Source of the DNA: a virus
Direction: 5' to 3' (one strand)
DNA length: 25,929 bases
Virus record (IMG/VR): IMGVR_UViG_3300040960_000750
Coordinates: 1 to 25,929 of that record
In this document: positions 14,757 to 18,459 of the stretch, piece by piece
Position numbering within the stretch: position 1 is the stretch's first letter
Layout: each line of letters starts with the position of its first letter
Notes under the pieces: model-generated
What the model was told of the DNA's origin: nothing
The model's input: the letters and a program-made list of their open reading frames with translations, nothing else
The model's database searches: none
Program-made: the position numbers and the translations under genes

Positions 14757-17294
14757 TTATATTCCGCCTTGGATAAGATTTCCGTTTAGACTTTTTGTAG
14801 CTGTAAGTGTTTGTGCTTCAAAGTCTCTTGATTCACGTAATACAGAAAGAACTTGTTCCATTGTACTATTTAACGTCGAAAGCGCCGCAGAACTACCAGC
14901 TGTGGACCCACCTATACGTTCTAATAAATCAGAGGCGTTCATTGCACTTCTTCCACGTCCTCTACCGTTTGTCTCAGACAACACATCATTTAATGCTTCT
15001 AGTGTTTCAACGAGTTCTTTTATAGCATCATTATAACTTGAAATGTTACTTGTGTCAAGATCGTTTATACCAGAAAATCCTTTTAAAGCAGTAGCCATGT
15101 TGACCATTGCCTCTGCATTGCGTTCAACACCTTGTGTGTTTATTCCTGCTTCGCCAAATGCAATTAACTGATCCATAGGACTGTCTGAGCCAAACAGTCC
15201 TGAAATTGCTCCACCGATTGCTCCAATTACACTTCCAGCACCTGCAACTGCTGTGCCAGCACCAAATTTTGCCATTGCACCGCTCATTGCTGATAATGCA
15301 CCAGCAGCTGAACTAAGTGCTTCACTGTCTAATGTTTCAAATTGCTTCATTCCGTCTATAAAAGTCGGAAATGCCAAACCTGTAAGCCAGGCTGCACCTG
15401 CAATACCTGCACCAATAGCTGTTATGACACCTGCTAGAGTTGCTGCGCCAGCAAGTATCATAGGTGATTGTGGACCGCCAAATGCTTGAAGTCCTTTAGC
15501 AGCACCTGCCATTGCGCCGCCACCGAGGTTACCTACAAATGCACCTATTTGTCTACCTTGACCGGCTAATCCGCCGCCGGCACGACCTCTGCGACCGCCA
15601 CCGCCACCACCACCACCGCCAGTCATACTGTCAAACATTTTTCCAAAGCCGTTTGTGATAGCATTTTTAATAACACTTGCACCAAATAATGCAGCTATTG
15701 CTACGCCTGCACCTGTAAGAACTGTTTCGCTTGTAAGTAGACTTTTGAATCCTTCGCCGATTTTTTCGCCAATAGTTGTTTCACCAGTAAGCAATTCTTT
15801 TATTCCATCTGCAAAACCAGTAATTGTATCTTTAAGTTCTGTTTTAAATGGCTCTTGAGTAAACAACGTTGCAATATCTGTAAATGCAGTAGCAACAGTA
15901 TCAAAAACTCCACTTTCTATAAATGCTGTTGCTAGAGTTGCTCTAACTTCTCTTACTTTGTCCTCAAATATAACAAGTTCTGCTGTAATAGCATCTCTTT
16001 TCTTTTGTTCTTCAAGTGCTGCATCGTAATTTTGTGACCCAACTTCTCTAAGTTTGTATGATTCATCTAGAATAGCTGCTAATGCCGGATTAGATTCTCT
16101 AATTGCACTAATAAATGCTGCTGCATCACCGCCTTCTCCTGCAAATCCATCTATTGACTTACCTGCTGCATTTAAAGCATCTTGAAGAACTTTTGGATCA
16201 GAACCAGCGGCTACTGCTTTCATAGCTTCCATTATTTCAGGACCTGCTGCGTTCACAAGTGCTATAGCTTCTTCGGTTTGCGGAACACCATCAGCTAGAT
16301 CTTTTAGTGCAATAGCAGTACTGCCGCCGATACTGTCAATTAAAGCCATGCTATCTGTGAAGTTTCGTAATTGTTCACTGTCAGGACCAAATTGTGATTC
16401 TAGACTTTTAGCAATTGCTCTAAAACTTGCATCAGCAGCGTTTTGTTGTATTGATTGTGCAATTTGATCACGTTGTTGACCAGTGATTTTTGCTAAAGCA
16501 TCGAGTCTTTTTAAGTAGTTTGCACTTCCTGCGGCTAGTTGTGCATTACTTTGTCCTTCTAGCATACCTAACCTACTTTGTAATGCAGTATAATCTGCTA
16601 GACCTTCATTAACTTCTTCGATAGTAAAGCCCATATTCCTTAAGACTTCTAAATCACCTGAAGCTTTAATAGCTTTGTTAATATTAGTAAATCTTTGAAC
16701 GCCTTCTGTAACAGTTCCGCCTAATAAACGTAGTGATTGTGCATTAGCGCCTACAAAAGATTGGAATTCATCTAAGTTTAGTTCAGCATTAGCTGCTGCT
16801 AGGCGCATGTCAGTAATACTGTTATTAAAACTTGCGCCAACAGAACTCATACTCCTAAAGCTTTCAACACTATTATCTAGCATGTTAGCAAAAGGTGATA
16901 TTAAATCTCCAATAATAGGAATATGCTGTGTAAAATCACCTAGTTGATTGCCTCCGAACGCAAATTCTTTAGCAAGATTAAAAGCACTTCCTGCAAGAGT
17001 GCTAATTCCGCTTACTAATAGTCCTGTAAGTCCTCTACCAAAGCTTGTTGTTGCTCTTGTTGCATCTTCAAGTGCATCAGTTTGATTTGCTAAAGCATCT
17101 CTGTTTTCAGTTACAACTTTTATGCCTTTTCTTACTTCAGCATTGTACTTTTCAGCTAGATCTTTTGCTTTTCTTGCATCAGCACCTTGATTTTTTGCCA
17201 ATCTATCAAATGCTTTCAGCAGAGATTGAAGCGTAGCTTCACTAGCAACACCGTTTCCACCTACATTTTCAATTTCTACTCTTTGATCAGCCAA
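14757..17294 (-). CDS. Putative tail tape-measure / large tail structural protein
   Basis: This 845-residue protein has a helical charged N terminus (residues 1-75). Hydrophobic segments follow near 86-106 and 525-545, a run of nine Gly with an RRGRAGGG stretch near 565-585, and further Ala/Gly-rich hydrophobic segments near 610-660 and 685-715. The C-terminal helix ends NGNLIQGGI. This mixture of helical, hydrophobic and Gly-rich parts is typical of tape-measure proteins, the role of gp29 in T4 (590 residues). Its place next to gp26 hub genes supports a tail-hub role. The frame opens after an in-frame TGA at 17298-17300, so the start must be the TTG at 17294 (or an ATA before it). A nearby ATG (17301) is in another frame and stops after four codons. 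Confidence 0.7.
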   Translation of the reverse strand: MADQRVEIENVGGNGVASEATLQSLLKAFDRLAKNQGADARKAKDLAEKYNAEVRKGIKVVTENRDALANQTDALEDATRATTSFGRGLTGLLVSGISTLAGSAFNLAKEFAFGGNQLGDFTQHIPIIGDLISPFANMLDNSVESFRSMSSVGASFNNSITDMRLAAANAELNLDEFQSFVGANAQSLRLLGGTVTEGVQRFTNINKAIKASGDLEVLRNMGFTIEEVNEGLADYTALQSRLGMLEGQSNAQLAAGSANYLKRLDALAKITGQQRDQIAQSIQQNAADASFRAIAKSLESQFGPDSEQLRNFTDSMALIDSIGGSTAIALKDLADGVPQTEEAIALVNAAGPEIMEAMKAVAAGSDPKVLQDALNAAGKSIDGFAGEGGDAAAFISAIRESNPALAAILDESYKLREVGSQNYDAALEEQKKRDAITAELVIFEDKVREVRATLATAFIESGVFDTVATAFTDIATLFTQEPFKTELKDTITGFADGIKELLTGETTIGEKIGEGFKSLLTSETVLTGAGVAIAALFGASVIKNAITNGFGKMFDSMTGGGGGGGGGRRGRAGGGLAGQGRQIGAFVGNLGGGAMAGAAKGLQAFGGPQSPMILAGAATLAGVITAIGAGIAGAAWLTGLAFPTFIDGMKQFETLDSEALSSAAGALSAMSGAMAKFGAGTAVAGAGSVIGAIGGAISGLFGSDSPMDQLIAFGEAGINTQGVERNAEAMVNMATALKGFSGINDLDTSNISSYNDAIKELVETLEALNDVLSETNGRGRGRSAMNASDLLERIGGSTAGSSAALSTLNSTMEQVLSVLRESRDFEAQTLTATKSLNGNLIQGGI

Positions 17295-17371: not shown

Positions 17372-18235
17372 ATGCCAGAAATTAAGCCCGTAGGTGCAAA
17401 TCCACTTCAAAAATATTTTAGACAACCTAAAGTATACTTGGATTTACCTAGCAAAGGAAAATATTATCCAGACGGTGCATTAGATATGCCTGAAACAGGC
17501 GAACTTCCTGTTTTTTCTATGACTGCAAAAGATGAACTAACAATGAAAACACCAGATGCATTGTTAAACGGCGTTGCTACTGTAGAATTAATACGAAGTT
17601 GTGTACCTAATATTACAGATCCATGGCAAATGCCTAGTGTTGACCTTGATGCAGTATTAATTGCTATCAGAATTGCCACATACGGCGAACAATTAGAAAT
17701 TTCAACTAAAGTTCCTAACCTAGGTGAGGAAAAAGATTTTGCAATTGATCTTAGACAATTATTAAACAAGCTTACAAACGTTACATTTGAAGATACAATC
17801 ACTCTAGGTAACATGGTAATCAGTTTAGCGCCACTCAGTTACAAGCAATTTACAGATAGTGCATTAAAAACATTTGAAGAACAGAGATTGTTTAGTCTTG
17901 TAAACAACGAAACAATACCAGAAGAAGAAAAATTAGCAAAATTTAATGAAAGTTTTCTTAAATTAACTAATTTAACTGTTGGTATGATGTCAAAAAGCAT
18001 AAAATCTATTACTGTTGAAGGTGAAGTTGTTGATAATCCTTTGCATATTGACGAATTTGTGCAAAATGCAGACAAAGAATTTTTTAATAACATTATCGAA
18101 CATATTGAAGAACAAAAACAAAAGTTTCAAATCGAACCTCTAACAGTTAAATCAACAGAAGATGAAATAAGTCGTGGTGCACCTGCTGAATGGACTGTAC
18201 CTATTACGTTTGATCAATCAAATTTTTTCGGATGA
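17372..18235 (+). CDS. gp26: Baseplate hub subunit gp26
   Basis: This 287-residue protein belongs to the T4 gp26 baseplate hub family. The family-typical N-terminal block is YFRQPKVYLDLPSKGKYYPD, followed by MKTPDALLNGVATVELIRSC with VPNI, then DLDAVLIAIRIATYG at about residues 88-102. It is longer than T4 gp26 (208). CGGAGA gives an SD before the ATG. The stop TGA overlaps the next ATG (ATGA), and the 3' end contains the in-frame slippery series A-AAT-TTT-TTC. A frameshifted fusion with the next ORF is therefore possible, as in tail-assembly chaperone pairs of other phages. It is transcribed away from the tape-measure gene from a late promoter. Confidence 0.88.
   Translation: MPEIKPVGANPLQKYFRQPKVYLDLPSKGKYYPDGALDMPETGELPVFSMTAKDELTMKTPDALLNGVATVELIRSCVPNITDPWQMPSVDLDAVLIAIRIATYGEQLEISTKVPNLGEEKDFAIDLRQLLNKLTNVTFEDTITLGNMVISLAPLSYKQFTDSALKTFEEQRLFSLVNNETIPEEEKLAKFNESFLKLTNLTVGMMSKSIKSITVEGEVVDNPLHIDEFVQNADKEFFNNIIEHIEEQKQKFQIEPLTVKSTEDEISRGAPAEWTVPITFDQSNFFG
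18220..18229 (+). promoter_or_regulatory. Candidate -1 ribosomal frameshift site at the end of gp26
   Basis: In the gp26 frame the codons read TCA AAT TTT TTC GGA TGA. Two canonical X-XXY-YYZ heptamers overlap: A-AAT-TTT (18220-18226) and T-TTT-TTC (18223-18229). A -1 slip at either leads through TTT-CGG into the ATG of the downstream ORF, giving a gp26/gp51-like fusion of about 363 residues. Confidence 0.45.
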
Positions 18236-18459
18236 GAATATTAGCCTGGCCACTTGATGAAATCTTAAAAGAAGTTAAGAAAATGGAAGGCGAACAGAAA
18301 CAATTAAAAACCGAAATTACAAAATTATGTTGGTACATGCGAGGAGGCGTAACAATAGAAGAAGCTTATGCACTAAGTTACGACGATAGATTAATTATGA
18401 ACGACATAATTAAAGAAAATATCGAAATAACTAAGAAAAGTGGATTGCCGTTCTACTAA
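18232..18459 (+). CDS. gp51: Short gp51-like hub assembly partner of gp26
   Basis: This 75-residue charged helical protein begins MRILAWPLDEILKEVKKMEG and ends with LCWYMRGGVTIEEAYALSYD (residues about 36-55) and TKKSGLPFY. In marine T4-like phages a short gene here is often annotated as gp51, the baseplate hub assembly factor; the identity is inferred from position and is far shorter than T4 gp51. It overlaps gp26 by four bases (ATGA) in the -1 frame and has no SD of its own, so it depends on translational coupling or on -1 frameshifting from gp26. Its stop codon abuts the stop of the opposing gene. Confidence 0.6.
   Translation: MRILAWPLDEILKEVKKMEGEQKQLKTEITKLCWYMRGGVTIEEAYALSYDDRLIMNDIIKENIEITKKSGLPFY

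Follow-up and report, generated by a model that had tools for sequence, protein, structure and literature searches.

Comparative evidence for a probable programmed -1 frameshift at the end of gp26 that would give short and long tail chaperones in T4-like phages

Frameshifted tail chaperones are textbook knowledge from phage lambda, whose slip heptamer is GGGAAAG. An excerpt of a 2016 review (PMC5009743) describes G-T frameshifting as conserved widely among phages with long tails, "except T4." For T4-like phages, the sections of the PRFect papers that cite Vladimirov 2022 state that some members use a short gene and a fused long gene with no frameshifting, and the corresponding section of the paper on phage Adele (PMC12846349) cites the same work for poly-T slip signals in the TAC-N genes of T4-like phages. 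Tail-chaperone frameshifting is known, then, and certain T4-like phages have apparently been described as using it before (Vladimirov 2022, as cited in those sections); the original prediction for the locus considered here, which was not aware of such a feature as described in T4-type hub genes, was probably too strong on this point. Literature searches on gp26/gp51 and on T4-like, cyanophage, and jumbo-phage chaperones turned up no open paper on frameshifting in the lineage of the present locus, and the word "frameshift" is absent from the accessible portions of the Atu_ph07 and CBB genome papers.

The window, that is, the whole 25,929-base stretch of viral DNA analyzed, contains a gp26-like ORF of 287 amino acids (17372-18235, + strand), equivalent to the short form, TAC-N. 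It matches the Pfam profile PF12322 (T4_baseplate) with an E value of 4.6e-13 and 49.8 bits against a curated cut-off of 24.5, and phrog_150 (baseplate hub) with an E value of 1.3e-13, and its AlphaFold2 model has a pLDDT of 84.5; this is the only PF12322 match in the record, which is possibly a fragment. The 3' end of the gene reads CAA TCA AAT TTT TTC GGA TGA, in which the codons TTT TTC form the slippery heptamer T_TTT_TTC (18223-18229, + strand), overlapped by a second heptamer, A_AAT_TTT (18220-18226, + strand). The gp26 stop codon, TGA at 18233-18235, overlaps the ATG of the next ORF at 18232-18234 in an ATGA (18232-18235, + strand). In the -1 frame the last stop 5' of the slip site is a TGA at 18211-18213 (+ strand), and the frame is open as far as the TAA at 18457-18459. 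The -1 extension (18229-18459, + strand; 76 amino acids plus stop), equivalent to TAC-C or the gp51 C-terminus, is supported by the open frame and alignment A2 and is modeled by AlphaFold2 as helical with a pLDDT of 84.3; the predicted fusion has 286 + 76 = 362 amino acids. In loci L001 and L002, which are identical in gp26, the open stretch of the -1 frame begins at -19, counted from the gp26 stop. No SD-like motif lies within 22 nt 5' of the downstream ATG in the window; gp26, by contrast, is preceded by such a motif, as are many further genes of the window. On direct reading, the coordinates, frames, and stops of the original prediction are right, as are its statements that the downstream ORF has no SD and that the -1 frame runs open from the slip sites into it.

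The interpretation favored here, at a probability of roughly 0.93, is that a programmed -1 frameshift at the end of gp26 makes a short and a long tail chaperone. Most ribosomes would terminate at the TGA to give gp26, the presumed short tail assembly chaperone, and a minority would slip by -1 at T_TTT_TTC, where the tRNA-Phe of both the P and the A site would pair anew with TTT TTT. A slipped ribosome would read CGG next and continue to 18459, giving a long chaperone with the helical extension at its C-terminus. The two forms together would coat the tape measure and recruit the tail tube protein, as do lambda gpG/gpGT, and an RNA stem directly 3' of the heptamer would probably assist in most relatives; in T4, each form would have a gene of its own, the paralogues 26 and 51. 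The slippage itself, its rate, and the role as chaperones are what we infer from the sequence, conservation, reading-frame, and homology observations given below. An excerpted report places H_HH.U_UU.Y among the most efficient heptamer classes in E. coli (PMC4066793), and T_TTT_TTY falls in that class. Judged from one sequence alone, the slip-site pattern is mildly unusual: the window genes, about 7,460 codons, hold 37 in-frame XXXYYYZ heptamers, including 4 of the form TTTTTTN. Comparison with relatives puts it far beyond chance.

A first scan of viral contigs returned 80 relatives with 52-100% identity, and TTT TTC occupies the same position in all 80. Pooling further scans and named phages gave 312 loci, of which 311 matched a gp26 query and 6 ended before the stop; the use of PA5oct as a query for further relatives gave 3 loci. 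Of the 305 loci that extend to the stop, 304 have TTTTTTC (288) or TTTTTTT (16) in frame within 30 nt of the gp26 3' end, and T4 is the exception. Clustering at 90% amino acid identity left 154 representatives, which share descent, so that counts among them are counts of non-independent events: 95 are window-like (marine and other contigs, Phosso, Atu_ph07, PA5oct, and 121Q) and 58 form a cyanophage/T4-core group (P-SSM2, S-PM2, HTVC008M, KVP40, phiW-14, phiM12, and contigs). Alignment of the junction across relatives, the check proposed with the original prediction, finds the slip site in place in 153/154 representatives (T_TTT_TTC in 145, T_TTT_TTT in 8), T4 being without it; the window-like representatives have T_TTT_TTC in 95/95 cases, and the cyanophage/T4-core representatives have T_TTT_TTC in 50/58 and T_TTT_TTT in 8/58. 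CP220 stands outside this count since no query matched its short gene, which is also without the heptamer. The original prediction had named both overlapping heptamers, and only one of them stands: in a smaller representative set T_TTT_TTC is conserved in 45/45, whereas A_AAT_TTT occurs in only 33/45 and is ruled out as the slip site. Because even highly diverged relatives retain this signal, the small "gene" usually annotated next to gp26 is very probably, for the most part, the tail end of a longer protein.

All representatives with the heptamer have a T run, which reaches 7 or 8 T in 8/153, as might be expected if RNA polymerase slipped on it, producing mRNAs with one base more or fewer from which the fusion would arise by ordinary translation. 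Such transcriptional slippage is nevertheless extremely unlikely, given that the run is exactly six T in 145/153, shorter than is usual for that process, and that it occupies one codon phase and is followed by C in 145/153; together with the localized 3' RNA stem described below, this length and phase are the requirements of -1 ribosomal slippage.

The two slip Phe codons of the window lineage are TTT in 95/95 representatives and then TTC in 95/95. Seven other conserved Phe columns of the window-like set contain 531 TTT and 106 TTC (17% TTC), and these codon counts indicate that conservation at the heptamer is at the level of nucleotides and not of protein. Alignment A1 shows no variation in the Phe-Phe ending of gp26, as would be expected if the heptamer merely reflected protein conservation of a C-terminal Phe-Phe and the downstream ORF were an independent gene; the likelihood of this is close to negligible, in that the slip codons never vary synonymously while the other conserved Phe codons do, and many relatives are without a start codon near the junction. 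The -1 frame itself is open over at least 57 codons in all 151 complete representatives, in keeping with that part of the proposed check, compared with 0/151 for the +1 frame and 37/3,020 for shuffled sequence over the same stretch. The first codon of the tail, which precedes any ATG, encodes Arg (CGN) in 94/95 window-like representatives, whereas the overlapping 0-frame residue of gp26 varies among A, G, V, and E, so selection acts on the -1 frame upstream of any ATG.

These observations also bear on termination-reinitiation at the ATGA, the competing explanation offered with the original prediction, in which gp26 would end at the TGA and a restart at the ATG would give a free gp51-like protein of 75 amino acids. 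The ATGA is present in the window and in 16/95 lineage members, and public annotations give a separate gp51 in P-SSM2, S-PM2, and KVP40. The junction ATG is missing, however, from the other 79/95 window-like representatives, which rules out reinitiation as the general mechanism; where the ATG occurs, it is in every case accompanied by a TGA stop and thus seems to be a side effect of which stop codon is used. Reinitiation also leaves unexplained the invariant TTT TTC, the conserved Arg codon ahead of the ATG, and the extension of PA5oct (L083:4840-5058, 73 codons), which has no start codon at all and no annotated gene. In 35 of 89 length-matched window-like members, tail codons 1-15 include no ATG, GTG, or TTG. 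As a mechanism shared by the lineage, reinitiation is very unlikely, although it could add a free extension product in the window phage alone.

Further support for programmed frameshifting comes from RNA folding, with z-scores calculated against shuffles that preserve protein and codon usage. The 55 nt 3' of the heptamer fold more stably than the shuffles, with a mean z of -2.19 for 95 window-like sequences and -2.13 for 56 of cyanophage type, and the sliding profile has its peak directly behind the heptamer, at +0 nt (z -1.76 and -1.68, respectively); displacement of the folded segment by 15 nt reduces this to -0.76 and -1.01, and values elsewhere in the profile are mostly in the range -0.5 to 0.25. 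Pairing most commonly starts 5 nt past the heptamer (46/88). RNAalifold applied to 88 gapless sequences returned no pairs (0.0) and no common consensus fold, by which a single consensus RNA structure is ruled out; the stems are therefore conserved in position and not as one set of pairs. The downstream structure of the window itself is weak, with z +0.54 in the 55-nt test, and its candidate stimulator is a possible weak stem-loop at 18244-18291 (+ strand): the fold of 18233-18292 has a minimum free energy of -10.3 kcal/mol and z -1.47, and other cuts give +0.57 (18230-18290) and -1.00 (18230-18310). A second rise in folding, with mean z about -1, occurs +45 to +60 nt past the slip site in the cyanophage group. 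Taken together, the conserved heptamer, the open -1 frame, the paucity of starts, and the positioned RNA structure support the lambda G/GT-type frameshift put forward in the original prediction.

Five codons ahead of the slip site, cyanophage-type loci (L153, L154, and others) encode Glu by GAG in 38/45 cases, compared with 344/1,213 (28%) elsewhere (Fisher p 2.7e-14). GAG at this position creates an SD-like GAGG, and an SD-like motif is found upstream in 45/58 cyanophage-type representatives and in 0/95 of the window lineage, which suggests that the lineages differ in their stimulators, GAGG being present in the cyanophage type and absent from the window lineage.

The relation to T4 was traced through homology. 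T4 gp26 and T4 gp51 both match the PF12322 profile end to end and share 20% identity (E about 3e-6). T4 gp51 alone spans the 282 positions of phrog_150, for which P-SSM2, S-PM2, HTVC008M, and phiM12 need gp26 together with the -1 ORF; phrog_634, "hub assembly catalyst," is the -1 extension. The cyanophage extensions align to residues 206-246 of T4 gp51, its C-terminus (E 3.6e-5, probability 71%), and the KVP40 record itself remarks on the gp51 likeness of its small ORF. From these homologies it follows that the long form exists in T4 as a complete gene, in place of the slip site of other members. The "gp51" genes of P-SSM2 (L175:1718-1891), S-PM2 (L177:1691-1864), and KVP40 (L176:1613-1780) look like frameshift extensions and not like genes in their own right. 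For the window lineage, the extensions gave no match to the T4 gp51 C-terminus, the best being at residues 38-65 with a probability of 5%, so that direct homology was not found; a weak collinear match connects window-like with cyanophage extensions (hhalign E 0.002, probability 14%), and any link to T4 gp51 would run through the latter, its first step being weak. Family membership of the window gp26 is based on Pfam and PHROGs, pairwise comparisons with T4 being weak: blastp against T4 gp26/gp51 gave chance-level matches only, and hhalign of A1 with the single T4 gp26 gave E 0.052.

A search of BFVD with the gp26 model (17372-18235) returned matches that include the T4-like gp26 of Aeromonas phage 25; in the PDB, nothing was found at E <= 0.001, and no solved chaperone structure was matched. 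The model also resembles uncharacterized proteins of about 500 amino acids and longer from jumbo phages, among them RSF1, RP12, and phiEaH2 (E values from about 2e-6 to 6e-4), and on the basis of the modeled fold these are possible chaperones. The divergent neighbor of gp26 is an 845-amino acid ORF (14757-17294, - strand) with a TTG start and no confident family assignment, its one match being a weak one to phrog_14121, "virion structural protein" (E 0.081); it is a putative tape-measure or other virion protein, and PHROGs searches of neighbor genes left the tape-measure identity unsupported. Neighbors occupy the equivalent place in Phosso, PA5oct, and 121Q, those of PA5oct and 121Q being labeled structural proteins, and in P-SSM2 and in KVP40 the next genes encode long hypothetical proteins.

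A broader reading, which we consider rather probable, is that the -1 frameshift is the ancestral two-chaperone route of a T4-like superfamily comprising marine uncultured phages, jumbo phages, cyanophages, the pelagiphage HTVC008M, KVP40, phiW-14, and phiM12, that T4 (and apparently CP220) exchanged it for duplication and pre-fusion, and that the helpers differ between two lineages, the cyanophage group having a stem together with an internal SD-like GAGG and the window lineage a stem with no SD. If so, "gp51, baseplate hub assembly catalyst" would be no separate gene in most T4-like phages outside the kin of T4, which suggests that many annotations may list a separate gene that is none, and T4 would probably be a derived exception within a group that otherwise keeps the slip site. 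The proteins gp26 and gp51, which have gone by the names of hub protein and catalyst for a long time, would gain a concrete role as short and long chaperones, and a known mechanism would possibly acquire a new evolutionary frame.

Comparison with described systems places the locus as follows. Like lambda gpG/gpGT, it has a short ORF with a heptamer near the 3' end and a -1 extension that is mostly without a start, and two forms are expected, which for this type would be made in a fixed ratio and be absent from the virion; unlike them, gp26 belongs to another family (PF12322), adjoins a divergent gene where the lambda type has the tape measure gene directly downstream, and has T_TTT_TTC as its slip site. 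The chaperones of Vandenendeviridae and Andersonviridae are similar, according to sections of the phage Adele paper, in their conserved -1 frame and poly-T slip motif and in the kind of evidence that supports them, but belong to other families and use the motif GTTTTT (PMC12846349). T4 gp26 and gp51 share PF12322 with the window gp26, and gp51 corresponds to the long form, its C-terminus aligning with the cyanophage -1 extension; T4, however, has two separate genes and a gp26 without a slip site, whereas the window has one gene and a predicted frameshift. The gp26/gp51 pairs of the Kyanoviridae P-SSM2 and S-PM2 and the KVP40 gp26/KVP40.0327 pair have T_TTT_TTC and an extension in the -1 frame but are annotated as separate genes with extensions of 57-60 amino acids, and whose group differs from the window lineage in its upstream SD-like motif.
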